DNA of 24,920 nt from the IMG/VR virus record IMGVR_UViG_3300044301_004528, positions 1 to 24,920 of that record. One strand, written 5' to 3'. Position numbers and translations under genes: made by a program. Below the pieces are notes generated by a model. The model saw only the letters and a program-made list of their open reading frames with translations. It ran no database searches and had not been told where the DNA came from. This document shows, piece by piece, positions 1-10,892 of the stretch (positions are counted from its first letter, which is position 1; every line of letters begins with the position of its first letter). The stretch comes from a virus.

Positions 1-321
1 GACGTTTGGGATCGTGGACTAAATGAAAAAGTTCTTCTAGTCGTTACCGGTGAGTTTGGCAGAACCAAAATCAACGCCAACGCTGGACGCGACCATTGGC
101 CTGCAATCACACCCATGATGATGGCTGGCGGAAAATATCAGTCTGGAAGAACCATAGGGAAAGCTAACAGATCATATGAGCCAACGGAAAATCCTGTTGG
201 CCCACTAGACTTACAAGCCACCCTGTTTGATCACTTTGGAATTGGACATGACGTTCAGAGGGTTGATATGGGTGGTCGTCCTAGATACTTATTAGAAGGA
301 GAAGCTAAAGTAATTTTATAG
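1..321 (+). CDS. DUF1501 family protein, C-terminal fragment (copy 1)
   Basis: The reading frame is open from the first base to TAG at 319-321, giving 106 residues with the N-terminus outside the window. GEFGRT (fragment residues 17-22) and GRDHWP (29-34) match the corresponding motifs in the two complete DUF1501 genes downstream, and the end (GGRPRYLLEG) matches the GRPQYLL end of copy 2. DUF1501 proteins belong to the alkaline phosphatase-like structural group and are usually exported; their substrates are not established. The Asp-His pair in GRDHW is a candidate metal ligand (inference). Copy 2 follows after 42 bases, so the genes are probably cotranscribed. Family assignment is firm; the activity is unknown. 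Confidence 0.85.
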   Translation, partial: DVWDRGLNEKVLLVVTGEFGRTKINANAGRDHWPAITPMMMAGGKYQSGRTIGKANRSYEPTENPVGPLDLQATLFDHFGIGHDVQRVDMGGRPRYLLEGEAKVIL

Positions 322-340
322 TAAAGAAGCCCCAATACTA

Positions 341-348
341 AAGGAGGT
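341..348 (+). promoter_or_regulatory. Strong Shine-Dalgarno sequence with long spacing
   Basis: AAGGAGGT is a near-perfect anti-16S complement, but it lies 15 bases before the ATG at 364, longer than the usual 5-9. No closer usable start exists in that frame, because TAA at 352-354 closes it. It therefore most likely serves the 364 start with relaxed spacing. Confidence 0.5.
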
Positions 349-363
349 TAATAAGATTTTAAA

Positions 364-1647
364 ATGTTAAATTTATCACGTAGAAGTTTTTTATCGGTTG
401 GAGGCTTAGGTCTACTTTCGATGCCGCAGGTTCTGTATGCTCAAGAACAAGGTGGTACATCTCATAAGGCAGTAATTAATATATTTTTGGGTGGTGGCCC
501 CCCGCATCAAGATATGTGGGATATAAAAACAGAAGCACCTTCGGAAATTCGTGGGCCATTTAAGCCGATCCCGACCAATGTGGCGGGTGTATACATCGGT
601 GAGTGTTTTCCACAGATCGCTTCTATGTTTGATAAGTTTACAGCAATTCGTTCTGTAGTAGGTTCAGATGGCTCGCATGATGGCCACCAATGCGTTACGG
701 GATGGAGCCGTAAGGATATGGTTTCAGGCAGTAGCTATCCTGCTATCGGGGCGTGTGCTTCTAAAATCTTGGGTTCAGTCGATCCTGCCGTACCAGTTGC
801 GGTAGGGTTGGCAGAGCCTACTCAACATTCCCCTTGGTCGGAAGCCGGAGGTGCTGGATATTTAGGAGATACCCATAAACCTTTTAAGCCCAATGGCGAA
901 ATGATGAAGGATCTTAAACTAAACATGCAGGTCGAAAGATTCAAAAATAGAAAAGATCTGCTCAATGGGTTTGCAGAATTAAACAAGACTATTGACAAAG
1001 CTGTTGATGTAGACACTTTTACTGAAGAGGCTTTTGGTGTTTTAACCTCAAGCTCTTTAGTTGACGCTTTGGACTTGTCAAAGGAAGATCCAAAGATCAA
1101 GGAAATGTACGGAGACGGTAAACCGTTTAAGTTCCAGTATGACGGGGCACCTACTGTAAACGAACATGTATTAATGGCTAGAAGACTTGTTGAAGCTGGA
1201 GCTAGGTCTGTTACTCTTTCTTACGGTCGATGGGATAGTCATGGCTCTAATTTTGATCTAGTTAGGGATCACGGGGTAAAATTGGATCAGTGCGTATCCG
1301 CACTCGTTCGAGACCTCGATCAGCGTGGTATGTTAGACGATACACTTGTTGTAGTATGGGGAGAGTTTGGTAGAACACCCAAGATCAACCCAAAGGGCGG
1401 TCGTGATCACTGGCCTCAAGTTTCTTGTGCTTTACTCGCAGGAGGAGGCTTCAATCATGGGCAGACCATTGGAGAAACCAATAGGCTTGGTGAGGTTCCA
1501 GAAACTAGACCCGTACATATTCAAGAAATTTGTGCAACGATGTACAGAGGGCTGGGTATTGACACTATGTCAACCACTTTATTAGATAGAACCGGAAGAC
1601 CTCAATATCTTTTAGACCACAGAGAACCACTTAAGGAGTTAATATAA
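364..1647 (+). CDS. DUF1501 family protein with Tat signal (copy 2)
   Basis: A complete 427-residue protein. The N-terminus carries a twin-arginine motif (SRRSFL, residues 5-10), a hydrophobic stretch and a likely cleavage after LYA near residue 26, so export in folded form by the host Tat system is predicted. Family motifs are GGGPPHQDMWD (43-53), GRWDSHG (288-294), GEFGRTP (333-339) and GRDHWP (346-351). The conserved Asp/His residues (H48, D50, D53, D291, H293, D348, H349) are plausible metal ligands for an alkaline phosphatase-like fold; that role is inferred. No sulfatase CxPSR signature is visible, so I do not call it a sulfatase. The stop overlaps the next ATG as TAATG. Family is secure, substrate unknown. 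Confidence 0.9.
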   Translation: MLNLSRRSFLSVGGLGLLSMPQVLYAQEQGGTSHKAVINIFLGGGPPHQDMWDIKTEAPSEIRGPFKPIPTNVAGVYIGECFPQIASMFDKFTAIRSVVGSDGSHDGHQCVTGWSRKDMVSGSSYPAIGACASKILGSVDPAVPVAVGLAEPTQHSPWSEAGGAGYLGDTHKPFKPNGEMMKDLKLNMQVERFKNRKDLLNGFAELNKTIDKAVDVDTFTEEAFGVLTSSSLVDALDLSKEDPKIKEMYGDGKPFKFQYDGAPTVNEHVLMARRLVEAGARSVTLSYGRWDSHGSNFDLVRDHGVKLDQCVSALVRDLDQRGMLDDTLVVVWGEFGRTPKINPKGGRDHWPQVSCALLAGGGFNHGQTIGETNRLGEVPETRPVHIQEICATMYRGLGIDTMSTTLLDRTGRPQYLLDHREPLKELI

Positions 1648-2132
1648 TGAAATATTTAGCATCACTACTATGTTTACTATTTGTGCCACTCTCTGTAAAC
1701 GCGGAACAGCCTGAACGCAAGGTTATTAAGCCTCCAACTACCGCGAGGCCGCAATCTTCCCAACAGCGAAGGGTCGTTACACCTCCAACTACTGCGAGGC
1801 CGCCAACCACCGCGAAGCCACAATTACCTCAAGGCTTTGGAAGACCCATACAAAGACCTGCGGGGTTTGGAAAACAAGAGTGGCAAAAACCTCAGCAGCA
1901 ACAGCAACAGGTCAGACCTAGCCACAACTATAGACATGGAAGTATAATAATTGGTAGACCATATGTTCACCCATTTAATTATCCTTCCGTAGAGACTAGG
2001 TTTCACCCAATACATGGCTTCTATAGGGTATACCACCCCCCAGTCTACGGCCCTCCTGTTATTGTTCAGCCACAACCAATGCCAGTTTATCCGGCACCAT
2101 TTCATGGGTTTTTCTTTCAATTTAGATTTTAA
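1647..2132 (+). CDS. Secreted proline-rich protein
   Basis: A 161-residue protein with a clear Sec-type signal peptide (MKYLASLLCLLFVPLSVNA, cleavage likely after residue 19). The mature part begins with three tandem PPTTARP-like repeats (residues 29-35, 46-52, 52-58), then a Gln run (84-89) and a Pro/Tyr/His/Phe-rich C-terminal half ending FHGFFFQFRF. There is no enzymatic motif. It resembles low-complexity exported or envelope-associated proteins. It is coupled by TAATG to the DUF1501 gene upstream and followed after 21 bases by the next DUF1501 gene, so it could be a linker or partner of those exported proteins (inference). I do not recognise a family. Confidence 0.8.
   Translation: MKYLASLLCLLFVPLSVNAEQPERKVIKPPTTARPQSSQQRRVVTPPTTARPPTTAKPQLPQGFGRPIQRPAGFGKQEWQKPQQQQQQVRPSHNYRHGSIIIGRPYVHPFNYPSVETRFHPIHGFYRVYHPPVYGPPVIVQPQPMPVYPAPFHGFFFQFRF
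1731..1820 (+). repeat. Tandem PPTTARP-coding repeats
   Basis: Three near-identical units inside the proline-rich gene encode PPTTARP, PPTTARP and PPTTAKP. The first two DNA copies (about 1731-1752 and 1782-1803) are nearly identical over 22 bases, and the third is contiguous with the second. The repeats keep the reading frame, so copy number may vary among relatives. Confidence 0.7.
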
Positions 2133-2153
2133 TCATTATCAGGAGTTGGACAA

Positions 2154-3371
2154 ATGAAAAGACGGGAATTTTTATCATCATTGGCTGGAGTTGCCGCATT
2201 AACAGGCACACTAAAAGCTAACCAGCAAGAGCTAAAGAAAAATGGTAAATCTGCCATCCTCCTTTGGATGGGTGGAGGCCCGTCAACTATGGATATATGG
2301 GACTTGAAACCAGACGCACCAACCGGAGGCCCGTTCAAACCTATTGCCACAACCGGCGATGTACAGATTTGTGAACACATGCCGTTGATGGCAAAGCAAA
2401 TGCACAACATGGCCATTGTGCGAAGCATGAGTACCCGTGAGGCAGATCACATGCGTGGGCGATATTATATGCATACTGGCTATGTTCCCAACCCAAGCAT
2501 GGTTCACCCCAGCTATGGATCAGTTATTTCCAAGCAGCTAGAAAAGCCAGATCTATTGATTCCACAATTTGTTTCCGTCAATGGTGGAAGTATGGGTGCT
2601 GGTTTTTTAGGCGCTCAGTATGATCCATTTGCCGTTAATAGTAATGGGCAGATTAGAAATCTAAACATGAAGATAGATCAAAGATTCTATCAAAGGGCGC
2701 AAGTCCTTGACATGATAGAGACTAACTTTATAAATAACAATAGGGGGTCTTTAGCCAAGGAACATCAAAAGGTATTAAGAAAAACCTTCAACGTCTTGAC
2801 CAGCAAGGAAATGGATGCAATGAAGGTAGATAAAGAGCCAGAAAACGTAAAAGAAAGATATGGAGACAACAACTTCGGCAAGGGTTGTTTAATGGCCAGA
2901 AGGCTTGTTGAGGTTGGGATACCGTTCATCGAGGTTGGACTGGGCGGCTGGGATAATCATCAGAATATCTTTCCAACATTAAGAGATACCAAACTACCTA
3001 TGCTCGATCAAGGAATGAGTGCATTGGTAGAAGACCTAGAACAGAGGGGTCTTCTTGATGACACGGTGGTTATATGGATGGGTGAATTTAGCAGAACCCC
3101 TCGCATTAACCAAAACGCTGGCCGTGACCATTGGGCACGAAGCTGGAGCGTCGTCGTTGGTGGTGGTGGCATGAAAGGTGGTATTGCCGTTGGCGAGACC
3201 AATTCAGACGGCACTCGTGTTGAAAGCGAACCATATACTTCTCAGGATATCATGGCTTCTGTCTGCAAGGCTCTTGGTATCTCACTACAGACAACGTTCT
3301 CAAGCAATAGCGGACGACCAATGAAAATAGCTAATTCAGGAAAGGTAATAAAGGAGTTATTCGTATCATGA
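2154..3371 (+). CDS. DUF1501 family protein with Tat signal (copy 3)
   Basis: A complete 405-residue protein. The twin-arginine motif is KRREFL (residues 2-7), followed by a hydrophobic segment ending LKA near 22, again predicting Tat export. Family motifs are GGGPSTMDIWD (40-50), GGWDNH (264-269), GEFSRTP (310-316) and GRDHWA (323-328). Relative to copy 2, HQD is replaced by TMD in the first motif and GEFGRT becomes GEFSRT. The copies are clearly divergent paralogues rather than a recent duplication. An AGGAG sequence at about 2140 precedes the start. The stop overlaps the next gene as ATGA. Family is secure, substrate unknown. Confidence 0.9.
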   Translation: MKRREFLSSLAGVAALTGTLKANQQELKKNGKSAILLWMGGGPSTMDIWDLKPDAPTGGPFKPIATTGDVQICEHMPLMAKQMHNMAIVRSMSTREADHMRGRYYMHTGYVPNPSMVHPSYGSVISKQLEKPDLLIPQFVSVNGGSMGAGFLGAQYDPFAVNSNGQIRNLNMKIDQRFYQRAQVLDMIETNFINNNRGSLAKEHQKVLRKTFNVLTSKEMDAMKVDKEPENVKERYGDNNFGKGCLMARRLVEVGIPFIEVGLGGWDNHQNIFPTLRDTKLPMLDQGMSALVEDLEQRGLLDDTVVIWMGEFSRTPRINQNAGRDHWARSWSVVVGGGGMKGGIAVGETNSDGTRVESEPYTSQDIMASVCKALGISLQTTFSSNSGRPMKIANSGKVIKELFVS

Positions 3372-3538
3372 AAAAAGAAGCGACAATGTTATTGAAAGCA
3401 TATCAAAGTAAGGACTGGACGATTGTAGCAAAAGCCTATGAGTCTATGACTGGAAAAGCAATGCCTGTCCCTGTTAAGTTCACCATAGACTACGACTGGA
3501 GAGAATCCGACAACAACAAAGCAGTAAAAGAAGGTTGA
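3368..3538 (+). CDS. Small hypothetical protein, 56 aa
   Basis: An ATG at 3368 overlaps the TGA of the DUF1501 gene (ATGA), the hallmark of translational coupling in this window. The 56-residue product ends at TGA 3536-3538, four bases before the next ATG, and so fills the only gap here. It is charged, with a short segment around KAYQSKDWTIVAKAY, and has no signal peptide or membrane segment. AAGGAG at 3351-3356 provides a ribosome binding site. I recognise no family. Support is positional: perfect tiling, start overlap and same strand. Confidence 0.6.
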   Translation: MKKEATMLLKAYQSKDWTIVAKAYESMTGKAMPVPVKFTIDYDWRESDNNKAVKEG

Positions 3539-3542
3539 TACT

Positions 3543-3821
3543 ATGAAGTTTTTTAAATGCGCTGTATATGTACTTTTTTTTCTATCTATTATAAATTTAG
3601 CGAGCACTCTATACCTGTATAACGATATAATAAAGAGACAACAGGTGGAGTTACCACTCGATCTGATAGAGATGCCAGAGCATCAAAGAACAAGAGAAAG
3701 TCAAATACTTCAAAGCATACTAATGCTTCACCATCAAGCAGGAATCCATAAACCCGGAAGTCAACCATTTTGTCCAATGTGTCAACAGGCTAGACCATCC
3801 GTAGTTTCAAACTTTCAATGA
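3543..3821 (+). CDS. Membrane-anchored small protein with CxxC
   Basis: A 92-residue protein. Residues 5-26 form one hydrophobic segment (CAVYVLFFLSIINLASTLYLY), an uncleaved anchor or signal. The rest is hydrophilic, with a C-terminal CPMC (Cys77, Cys80) and two adjacent His at 63-64. The CxxC could be redox-active or bind a metal, but one pair alone is weak evidence. The stop overlaps the next gene as ATGA. No family recognised. Confidence 0.65.
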   Translation: MKFFKCAVYVLFFLSIINLASTLYLYNDIIKRQQVELPLDLIEMPEHQRTRESQILQSILMLHHQAGIHKPGSQPFCPMCQQARPSVVSNFQ

Positions 3822-5433: not shown

Positions 5434-6482
5434 ACTTAATTGCTCCCATAAACAACTTAGGATATGGGGTGGCTGGATATAATATTTTTAAAAGCTTATT
5501 TGCGTTAGATCGCACCACCTCCCTGTATCCTATTTCAACACCAGAGTTCTTTGACGCAGCTATACAATCCGGATTGGATAATAGGTGTGACCAAACAGTT
5601 AAGCCATGCGTGAAGATATGGCACCAAAATGATTTGTTTCAATTTGTAGGACATGGGGAGCATATAGGTTTTCCTATATTTGAGTTAACTGAATTTAACG
5701 AAGAGGAAAAACTGAGCCTCAACCATTGTGATAAAATTTATGTTTGTTCCGACTGGGCAAAACAAATAGTATTAGATCAGATGGCTGGGTCTTTCTGCGA
5801 GAATCGTATCCATGTAGTTCCTCTAGGTGTTGACGCAGAGCTTTTCCAACCCGCCCTATCTAGCAGAACGCCTACAGTTTTCCTGAATTGTGGAAAGTGG
5901 GAAAAAAGAAAAGGTCACGATGTTTTACTAGAATGCTTCAATTCTGCATTTACCCAAGATGACGACGTTGAACTATGGATGATGTGTGATAACCCCTTCA
6001 TAGGTCAAAATAATCAAGGTTGGCAAAATCTATACAAGTCATCTCCTCTCGGAGATAAAATTAGAATAATTCCTAGACAACAAACGCACCAAGATGTGTA
6101 TAACATAATGAAGCAAGCCGACTGCGGGGTCTTCCCATCTAGAGCAGAAGGTTGGAATCTAGAGCTTCTTGAAATGATGGCATGTGGAAAGCAAGTCATA
6201 GCTACAAATTATTCAGCGCATACAGAATTCTGCGATAACAAAAACACACTTCTAGTGGATGTTGAAAAGTTAGAAACGGCTCATGATGGCGTTTTCTTCA
6301 ATGGTTCTTGCGGGCGATGGGCAAGCATAGAACAAAAACAGAAAGATCAAATAGTGTCTCACATGCGAACGGTTTACACTAACAAAAAACATAACTCCCT
6401 ATGCTTAAATGAAGAAGGTGTAAAAACCGCACTTCGTTTTTCATGGGACAACTCCGCGAGAGAGGTCATTAATGGACTTTAG
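5427..6482 (+). CDS. Glycosyltransferase family 4 (GT-B)
   Basis: A 351-residue protein. The N-terminal domain has a Gly-rich loop (NNLGYGVAGYN, 9-19) and a VPLGVD segment (131-136). The C-terminal donor domain opens with CGKWEKRKGHDVLL (155-168) and has the E-x7-E motif of retaining GT4 enzymes (E241 in SRAEGWN, E249 in LLEMMACG). It should transfer a hexose-type residue from a nucleotide sugar; the sugar is unknown. The length is typical of the family. The stop lies inside the start of the peptidase gene (11-base overlap), so the glycosyltransferases and the peptidase are one transcript. Confidence 0.85.
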   Translation: MVNLIAPINNLGYGVAGYNIFKSLFALDRTTSLYPISTPEFFDAAIQSGLDNRCDQTVKPCVKIWHQNDLFQFVGHGEHIGFPIFELTEFNEEEKLSLNHCDKIYVCSDWAKQIVLDQMAGSFCENRIHVVPLGVDAELFQPALSSRTPTVFLNCGKWEKRKGHDVLLECFNSAFTQDDDVELWMMCDNPFIGQNNQGWQNLYKSSPLGDKIRIIPRQQTHQDVYNIMKQADCGVFPSRAEGWNLELLEMMACGKQVIATNYSAHTEFCDNKNTLLVDVEKLETAHDGVFFNGSCGRWASIEQKQKDQIVSHMRTVYTNKKHNSLCLNEEGVKTALRFSWDNSAREVINGL

Positions 6483-7392
6483 CACACCACGCAATATCCT
6501 GAATCTTTATAGACAGGGATTTGTTGGCAGTATTTGCGATCCGGAAGATACTGCAAAATTAATGGGCGAGCTTCCAATGCCTGTATTTGGTGCAGCCGCT
6601 TATAGTCTTTATGGAGATGGAGAGGGTAAAAAGTCTTTGCCGTTTAAGTCTCTACTGAAATTTGACCCAAGCTTTGGGCCATATGAAAGACAAACCACAG
6701 GAGACTGCGTCTCTCACTCAACAAGAAATGCTGTAGATATTACCAGAGCTGTTGAGATAGACGTAAAGGGAGACAGGGAATCGTTTGAGGCTCGTGGAGC
6801 CACCGAAGCTATATATCAATCGAGGGGTCACATGGGGCAGGGGATGACATGCTCTGGTGCCGCTAGATATGTGCATCAAACGGGAGGTATACTCATAAGA
6901 AAAGACTACGGAGACATCGACTTATCAACATACAACTCCTCACTAGGTGCAAAAAAGAGAATACCTAAAAATGTCTATACCACAGAAGCCAAAAAACACC
7001 AAGTCAGAACAATATCTAACATCAGAACGGTCGAAGAAGCTAGAGACGCTATCGCTAATGGCTACGCTATGTCTGTATGTTCTGGGTATGGGTTTAGTAG
7101 TCGTAGGGATGGTAATGGCATTGCCAAACGCTCTAGTGGCTGGAACCATGCTATGGCTTGGATCGCTTGTGACGATAGTAGGGAAATATACAACGAAACA
7201 TTATTCTTAATTCAAAACTCGTGGGGCGTCTGGAACTCTGGGCCAAAAAGATTAGATCAACCTGATGGCAGTTTTTGGATCAGAGAAAAAGATGCTCGCG
7301 GAATGCTTTCCAGCGGTTCGGCTTGGGTCTTCAGCGACGTAGATGGTTTTCCCGCCAGAAAAATAGACTGGACAATAGACGAGGTTTTTTAA
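6472..7392 (+). CDS. Papain-like (C1) cysteine peptidase
   Basis: A 306-residue protein with the Cys-His-Asn arrangement of C1 peptidases: Cys79 in QTTGDCVSHS, His226 in GWNHAMAW, and Asn249 in LIQNSWG. The NSWG motif and the hydrophobic stretch after the His are typical of C1. The Cys box lacks the classical CGSCW, resembling divergent phage and bacterial members. No signal peptide or propeptide is obvious. It may cleave virion, host or envelope proteins or peptidoglycan peptides. The following genes encode small membrane proteins including a holin-like one, which is compatible with a lysis role (inference). Two bases separate it from the next gene. Confidence 0.8.
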   Translation: MDFSTPRNILNLYRQGFVGSICDPEDTAKLMGELPMPVFGAAAYSLYGDGEGKKSLPFKSLLKFDPSFGPYERQTTGDCVSHSTRNAVDITRAVEIDVKGDRESFEARGATEAIYQSRGHMGQGMTCSGAARYVHQTGGILIRKDYGDIDLSTYNSSLGAKKRIPKNVYTTEAKKHQVRTISNIRTVEEARDAIANGYAMSVCSGYGFSSRRDGNGIAKRSSGWNHAMAWIACDDSREIYNETLFLIQNSWGVWNSGPKRLDQPDGSFWIREKDARGMLSSGSAWVFSDVDGFPARKIDWTIDEVF

Positions 7393-9778: not shown

Positions 9779-10417
9779 ATGTCTAAACCTAAACAAATAG
9801 CTTGGGAAAGCTGGAACGCTAGAGTAGAAGACATCATGTCACCAAAAGATATAACGCTACCAGAAATTGATGCGAGCGAAGCAAATTATAGCGAAATTGA
9901 AATACCAGTAGATTTTTTCCCTCCAGAAATGTTCCTACAACAACAAAGGGTTTTATATACACCTCTGGGCATTTATCCAGAAGAGTCATCATTAAAACCT
10001 TCTGACAGATGGGACTGTTGGATGGGGTACAGTAATTTTGATATAACAAATGACATAGCAGACAAAATAGAGATGATTGAAGGAGTAGAGGCTCTCAGGG
10101 TAATGGGCAGATACTCATTTTTCATAGGCATTGGAAAGCTTTTCGATATCAAGGAGGTCAGAACAGACATAGAAAAAGAGCTGTGTGTTTATACAGAGCA
10201 GGAGATATTTTCAAACGAAAATACTCAAGCTACTGTAAATCTAGTAAAAGAACAACTAAAGACTAAAAAATATTGGTCTATGTTAGTATCGCCTGAAGGC
10301 GAAGTTGAATATATTGTTTCAGACAAGATGGATAAAGGTTATCTTGACGGTTTGAGCGGACTACTTGAACTTAAACAAACCCGTGGTGGGATCATATTGA
10401 GAGGAAATAATGGATAA
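9779..10417 (+). CDS. Hypothetical protein, 212 aa
   Basis: The gene has a GGAGGT ribosome binding site (9769-9774), so it is probably well translated. The 212-residue acidic product has Trp-rich spots (IAWESWNARV near the start, DRWDCWMGYSNFDI in the middle) and no signal, membrane segment or catalytic motif that I can name. Its last 8 bases overlap the sigma-like gene, which implies coupled translation. Function unknown; a role alongside the sigma-like factor is only a guess from position. Confidence 0.65.
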   Translation: MSKPKQIAWESWNARVEDIMSPKDITLPEIDASEANYSEIEIPVDFFPPEMFLQQQRVLYTPLGIYPEESSLKPSDRWDCWMGYSNFDITNDIADKIEMIEGVEALRVMGRYSFFIGIGKLFDIKEVRTDIEKELCVYTEQEIFSNENTQATVNLVKEQLKTKKYWSMLVSPEGEVEYIVSDKMDKGYLDGLSGLLELKQTRGGIILRGNNG

Positions 10418-10892
10418 AATTGACAAACTTTTGAAAGACCCTAATATTGTAAATATAATGAACGCCGTGTCAAGCCGATACACTCGATCTATAGACAGGG
10501 ACGAGATAGAATCAATAAAGATGATTACTCTTTGGAAATGTATAGACAAATACGACGCCTCAAGGGGGGCCAAATTCACCTCGTATTTATACCAGCAACT
10601 GTCCTTTGCTTTCAAAAACGAACTAAAGAAGCGAAAGCAAATGCTCTATCTTGACAGCGTTAAGCTGGACTTTATTAAATCTGACTCTGTTTACAGAGAC
10701 AGCTCTAGGGAGTTTATAGACACCCTTCTCGGATTGCCAGAAGACGTATCAAGTATCCTAAAACAAAGGTATCTTGGAAACATGACTATGGTTGAAATTG
10801 CCAAGGCTAACGGATACAGTCGAGAGACAGCCAGAAGAAGGCTTAAGAGGGCAATAAAAATGTGTAAAAAAAGTAACGGGCAAATGACATAA
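10410..10892 (+). CDS. Small sigma70-like factor
   Basis: A 160-residue protein. Residues 43-75 (including KYDASRGAKFTSYLYQQL and the basic ELKKRK) match sigma region 2, which carries core-RNAP binding and -10 recognition. Residues 117-149 (KQRYLGNMTMVEIAKANGY, then SRETARRRLKRAIK) form a region 4 helix-turn-helix. The linker is short and region 1.1 is absent, as in compact phage or alternative sigma factors. It probably redirects host RNA polymerase to later viral genes, and the isolated virion gene directly downstream is a natural target (inference). Role as a sigma factor is likely; specificity is unknown. Confidence 0.75.
   Translation: MDKIDKLLKDPNIVNIMNAVSSRYTRSIDRDEIESIKMITLWKCIDKYDASRGAKFTSYLYQQLSFAFKNELKKRKQMLYLDSVKLDFIKSDSVYRDSSREFIDTLLGLPEDVSSILKQRYLGNMTMVEIAKANGYSRETARRRLKRAIKMCKKSNGQMT

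Follow-up and report, generated by a model that had tools for sequence, protein, structure and literature searches.

The DUF1501 array

IMG/VR virus record IMGVR_UViG_3300044301_004528 was analysed over its whole stretch of 24,920 nucleotides (the window), the first 3,371 of which hold an array of genes of the DUF1501 family (PF07394). An earlier note, made from the sequence alone, had described the array as three tandem proteins exported by the twin-arginine translocation (Tat) system. PF07394 matches are present in all three copies, of which only two are complete; copy 1 is a 3′ fragment. The DUF1501 sequences sort into types D, A, C and B, which mostly occur in this order on one strand, and the window reads D (partial)-C-B. 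The genes at this end of the window are as follows.

1–321, + strand: copy 1, the 3′ end of a type-D DUF1501 gene, clipped by the contig end (PF07394, E = 1.1e-20)
364–1647, + strand: copy 2, a complete type-C DUF1501 gene of 427 amino acids with the Tat-like start MLNLSRRSFL (PF07394, E = 5.7e-83)
1647–2132, + strand: a predicted exported protein of 161 amino acids, Sec-like signal followed by a Pro/Gln-rich part; overlaps copy 2 by TAATG
2154–3371, + strand: copy 3, a complete type-B DUF1501 gene of 405 amino acids with the Tat-like start MKRREFL (PF07394, E = 8.8e-107)
3368–3538, + strand: an open reading frame of 56 amino acids, overlapping copy 3 by ATGA (read from the sequence)
3543–3821, + strand: a small membrane protein of 92 amino acids with a C-terminal CPMC motif, the usual gene 3′ of type B

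Copies 2 and 3 match the full domain, with 279.7 and 358.1 bits against a curated cut-off of 27, and copy 1 aligns with profile positions 283–386, the C-terminal quarter only (74.6 bits). They are 89% (copy 1), 98% (copy 2) and 91% (copy 3) identical to types D, C and B of one other locus, L005. GEF(G/S)RT and GRDHW are present in all three copies, and SRRSFL and KRREFL stand at the starts of copies 2 and 3, as first noticed. The word tandem would suggest duplication; the 161-amino-acid gene separates copies 2 and 3, so they are not strictly adjacent, and the types are paralogues that match separate host loci and are not duplicates. The remainder of the window consists of phage genes (glycosyltransferase, ribonucleotide reductase, dUTPase, PhoH-like, UvsX-like and DnaB-like), and the array runs into them without a break, as the earlier note had stated, through a TAATG overlap at 1644–1648 and ATGA overlaps at 3368–3371 and 3818–3821.

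The cluster recurs within phage genomes

Apart from such viral copies, DUF1501 belongs to bacteria, and a planctomycete genome carries dozens of members, which raises the possibility that positions 1–3371 are bacterial chromosome joined to phage sequence by misassembly or contamination. In IMG/VR, copy 3 matched 75 loci and copy 2 matched 46, at 59–98% identity save for one cross-match between types. Each of 28 long contigs carries one to four DUF1501 copies, and dozens of independent IMG/VR contigs repeat the cluster together with its phage neighbours. Because the same gene types appear in the same order in dozens of contigs, the cluster is beyond chance. At the 3371 junction no single blastn alignment spans the join, the relatives being too diverged at the DNA level, and gene order was therefore used in place of DNA alignment; loci L022, L076, L083 and L084 repeat the gene order of the window on both sides of base 3371.

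One relative, G002, is a complete tailed-phage genome of 166,833 bases, bounded by a 100-base direct terminal repeat (99% identity), and holds the DUF1501 cluster in its interior. It encodes a terminase large subunit (phrog_2, E = 6.7e-23; PF03237) and a tape measure protein. Of the 28 long contigs, six encode a clear terminase (E about 1e-24); weaker matches in the others fall on PhoH-like genes and were not counted. The viral DUF1501 sequences also form clades of their own in the tree, and the GC content of positions 1–3371 (0.43–0.45) is near that of the rest of the window (0.37–0.44). The chimeric join or flanking chromosome against which the earlier note had warned is rejected by this recurrence, by the synteny and by the complete genome; since the cluster recurs, a contamination origin is already refuted and we hold it to be vanishingly improbable. 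The cluster genes belong to phages.

The position of the cluster on the phage backbone varies: it lies upstream of glycosyltransferase genes in the window and between a tail-like gene and PhoH in L101, L109 and L114. Of 20 further contigs with a related UvsX, terminase or tape measure protein, many of them fragments, just 2 have DUF1501. This count rejects universal carriage and makes DUF1501 an accessory gene of the wider phage group, in line with the viral accessory set first proposed. No near isolate phage was found, with UvsX below 31% identity to the INPHARED phages listed.

A viral role for DUF1501 is not on record in the literature and databases searched, as the earlier note had supposed, and the papers found to name the family report no function; it has been called uncharacterised, with clusters linked to compartmentalised bacteria of the Planctomycetes–Verrucomicrobia–Chlamydiae group (PMC4452313). 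Its occurrence in a phage is not wholly unprecedented, as BFVD holds one DUF1501-named protein of an uncultured Caudovirales phage (UniProt A0A6J5M742). That protein matches in predicted fold (E = 6.7e-8); however, it is 13% identical and is a single entry with no described cluster.

Four paralogue types with separate orthologues in Pirellulales

The order D-A-C-B is seen at 24 loci and D-A-B at 20 loci, some of which share a contig. Identity between types is 31–35%, and each type resembles its own bacterial counterparts more closely than it does the other types. Tandem duplication inside the phage is rejected on these grounds, and by sequence comparison D, A, C and B are four old paralogue types.

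The link to Planctomycetota drawn in the earlier note was right and can be narrowed to orthologues in Pirellulales. The top matches of type B in genome contigs are all from Planctomycetota, led by metagenome-assembled genomes (MAGs) named Rhodopirellula (73–74%). Across 98 Pirellulales genomes, type B is found at 57–76% in most, the next paralogue dropping to about 45%; 86 of the 98 pass the threshold, a few merely through paralogues or fragments. Type A is found at 52–78% in 65 genomes, type C at up to 62% in 49, and type D, more distant than the other types, at up to 44% in 16. In a tree with bacterial DUF1501 proteins, viral B forms one clade (support 100) within bacterial B, sister to Rhodopirellula MAGs (98); viral C branches as the sister of the bulk of bacterial C; and viral D forms a pair with bacterial D (100). 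Viral A is placed within bacterial A, next to Rhodopirellula-named MAGs, and a bacterial sequence from genome G029 falls inside it. Multiple captures of type A as a proven event are nonetheless rejected, since a single viral A clade is not rejected (approximately unbiased test, p-AU 0.2).

The bacterial orthologues are scattered, with A, B and C on contigs C48, C8 and C13 of G029 and on C13, C5 and C8 of G092. In the tree, then, each type groups with a separate host orthologue family, whereas the phages hold all of them in one same-strand block. The phage proteins resemble the Pirellulales groups A, B, C and D in their full domain, core motifs, Tat-like start and 44–78% identity; they differ in standing together without PSCyt2 neighbours. 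From this ancestry, the phages most plausibly infect Pirellulales-like Planctomycetota.

Bacterial A and B genes adjoin PSCyt2/PSD1 genes: type B comes after a PSCyt2-PSD1 gene, and type A shares its operon with PSCyt2-PSD1, a cytochrome-like gene and the gene of a PPC-domain protein. In one genome type B adjoins the S13-rpoA-L17 ribosomal operon, which says that it is a core gene and nothing on function. These neighbours bear on an explanation in which phage DUF1501 proteins would work alongside the host's cytochrome and PSCyt2/PSD1 proteins to enhance or divert an extracytoplasmic host module, with the phage bringing the DUF1501 half alone. The host gene order beside B and A speaks for such an arrangement, as do the copy numbers of PSCyt2 (absent from 12 of 12 phages searched, 26–100 copies in each of five Pirellulales genomes) and one phage, G449, in which DUF1501 stands with PSCyt1-PSCyt2-PSD1. 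However, host D and C orthologues are not clearly beside PSCyt2 and the PSCyt module itself has no known function, and we regard both the diverted module and the supply of one half of it as unlikely.

Export motifs and purifying selection

Tat signals were called by an RRxFL-type motif and a following hydrophobic stretch. Among unique sequences, the Tat-like motif is present in 52 of 52 type D (the full-length relatives of the clipped copy 1), 28 of 28 type C, 63 of 64 type B and 32 of 38 type A. Most of the type-A exceptions are over-extended starts; where starts fall in the normal length range, the RR pair is found in all A and in all but one B. The cluster proteins thus look Tat-exported, as the earlier note had read from two of them. 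A Tat motif has also been described in a DUF1501 protein encoded next to chitin synthase genes of bacteria (PMC5122149).

All four types are under strong purifying selection, with median ratios of nonsynonymous to synonymous substitution (dN/dS) of 0.055 (A), 0.031 (B), 0.038 (C) and 0.057 (D), and their core family motifs are intact. W-D-x-H, GEFGRT and GRDHW are conserved in the viral as in the bacterial groups, and the residues kept in both are D/E47, H99, W266-D267-x-H269, D285, E311-F-x-R-T with R314, and GRDHW with H326. From their position in these motifs, D/E47, D267, H269, E311 and H326 are putative metal ligands.

Predicted fold and possible chemistry

An AlphaFold model of copy 3, built from a 60-sequence alignment, has a predicted local distance difference test score (pLDDT) of 82.6. 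Compared with the PDB using Foldseek, it matches sulfatases, LtaS/LtaP and alkaline phosphatase (E = 4e-7 to 2e-5, probability 1.00), and the predicted fold is that of the alkaline-phosphatase superfamily. Sequence searches found no solved structure for DUF1501. A PDB profile search gave weak matches only, to LtaS and sulfatases, in which GEFGRT lies on the sulfatase D-H-G-R strand and E311 on the D of D-H-G; a weak Phosphodiest match also appears among the Pfam results. The likeness to the superfamily therefore consists of the predicted fold and this weak alignment of the metal-site strand, set against the lack of a sulfatase signature and of an evident nucleophile, and E-F in place of D-H.

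The sulfatase signature C/S-x-P/A-x-R (formylglycine, PF00884 type) occurs in 0 of 182 unique viral sequences, and sulfatase membership is rejected. Nor is any Ser, Thr or Cys conserved at the expected nucleophile position in the viral and bacterial alignment. Chemistry on sulfated or phosphorylated polymers, which the earlier note had proposed, is on these grounds no more than plausible from the predicted fold.

The lack of an evident nucleophile and the E-F substitution would also suit proteins that keep the fold without catalysis, such as inactive decoys or structural parts (for example, binding proteins on the virion or cell surface), and because the family is not restricted to viruses the whole of it might be non-hydrolytic. 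Yet the putative metal ligands do not vary across the viral and bacterial sequences, dN/dS values of 0.03–0.06 favour a precise function, and a Tat signal is ill-suited to virion assembly in the cytoplasm; we consider such a role very unlikely.

A proposed cassette for the host envelope

The reading that we prefer, with a probability of about 0.45, is that the array is a cassette of host-derived, Tat-exported metallo-hydrolases that act on the envelope or surface polymers of the infected cell, carried by phages of Pirellulales-like Planctomycetota. That the proteins are exported hydrolases is probable; that they act on envelope or surface polymers rather than on small nutrients is more tentative. 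During infection, the enzymes would be exported, already folded and loaded with metal, by the host Tat system and would, in the periplasm or at the cell surface, hydrolyse ester groups on polymers of the host envelope or on extracellular ones, with the small exported and Cys-rich proteins encoded between the DUF1501 genes as possible partners. The phage might gain by remodelling the surface, for release or to exclude competing phages, or by sustaining a host surface function after host gene expression falls, as with psbA in cyanophages. The cassette resembles the auxiliary metabolic genes of marine phages (psbA, phoH and pstS of cyanophages) in its host orthologues, nested phylogeny, purifying selection and variable carriage; unlike them, it clusters several members of one family and its products are predicted to be Tat-exported.

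Several points weigh against the envelope cassette. The Tat assignment comes from motif and hydrophobicity with no trained predictor behind it, and the Foldseek TM-scores are modest (0.35–0.45), a match at the superfamily level only. The lack of a conserved nucleophile, E-F in place of the usual D-H metal motif, and the lack of PSCyt2 in the phages, all described above, count in the same direction, and we found no biochemical datum for any DUF1501 protein in the literature. The host is assigned by gene ancestry, and a search of 397 Pirellulales genomes, run without a positive control, found no copy of the phage terminase, so that no prophage or contaminating contig confirms the assignment. The names of the MAGs and the IMG study numbers suggest a marine setting.

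By analogy with the phosphate-acquisition genes of cyanophages, the exported enzymes could instead serve phage DNA synthesis by freeing sulfate or phosphate from organic esters. Alkaline phosphatase is among the fold relatives, phosphatases loaded with metal are commonly exported by Tat, and the window carries nucleotide-supply genes (ribonucleotide reductase and dUTPase) and a PhoH-like gene. Against such scavenging, neither a transporter nor a Pho-type partner lies in the array, the joint upkeep of four diverged paralogues would suit a range of polymer linkages more than a single bulk nutrient, and the canonical D-H metal motif of phosphatases is replaced by E-F, which makes it improbable in our judgement.

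Planctomycetes have tens of DUF1501 and PSCyt genes without a known role, and few planctomycete phages have come to light. A cassette of four orthologue groups that is strongly selected and recurs in unrelated large phages flags genes that matter in infection, suggests a host for a large group of uncultivated phages and supplies compact proteins to express and test.

DUF1501 genes in other large phages

A broader scan found 518 related stretches in viral contigs. Type B is present at 64–69% in G001, G447, G448 and G449 (152–238 kb), type A in G450 (320 kb), A and B in G451, and D and A in G452; the viral status of these seven contigs comes from IMG/VR and gene make-up, not from hallmark genes. 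In G001, G448 and G449 type B adjoins a VWA-like membrane protein of 624–629 amino acids (L132:7280-9163, L550:4115-6004 and L543:7248-9122), for which Pfam support is E = 8.6e-6 in G448, weak in G001 and none in G449; homologues of up to 41% occur in 81 of 98 Pirellulales genomes. The 152-kb contig G449 continues with a PSCyt1-PSCyt2-PSD1 gene (L543:9168-11552) and then another DUF1501 gene. It is possible, though we lean against it, that phages of Planctomycetota took up the same small set of DUF1501 genes, chiefly B and A, independently and repeatedly across several large-phage lineages, since these core exported host enzymes control a cell-surface step critical to infection. If repeated capture is true, the phage set would be a natural handle on the function of a family with dozens of copies per planctomycete.

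One viral contig of 158 kb has a DUF1559 pilin-like gene (L613:2239-3219; PF07596, E = 4.6e-50) just upstream of its B and A genes; we take this family to be typical of planctomycetes.

Small proteins and other neighbouring genes

Neither Pfam nor NCBIfam gave a match for the 161-amino-acid protein at 1647–2132, whose family occurs within the array at 22 of the 78 loci compared. The 92-amino-acid membrane protein, also without a Pfam match, belongs to a family found in 42 of the 78, and a relative of the 56-amino-acid open reading frame (3368–3538) is absent from most of the other array loci compared. Small exported or membrane proteins lie between DUF1501 genes in L013, L120 and other array loci, and two of the small-protein families, of 64 and 161 amino acids, are very Cys-rich and metallothionein-like.

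Further along the window, positions 6472–7392 encode a 306-amino-acid protein with papain-like landmarks seen by eye (QTTGDCVSHS, WNHAMAW and QNSWGVW); it has no Pfam match at 0.01 and is kept in the lineage at 72–76% identity in G002, L105 and L106. In G002, a tmRNA-like gene (transfer-messenger RNA; L125:15084-15400, tag GVENYAMAA) adjoins four tRNA genes. A small sigma-70-like protein with regions 2 and 4, possibly a phage transcription factor, is encoded at 10410–10892 of the window.

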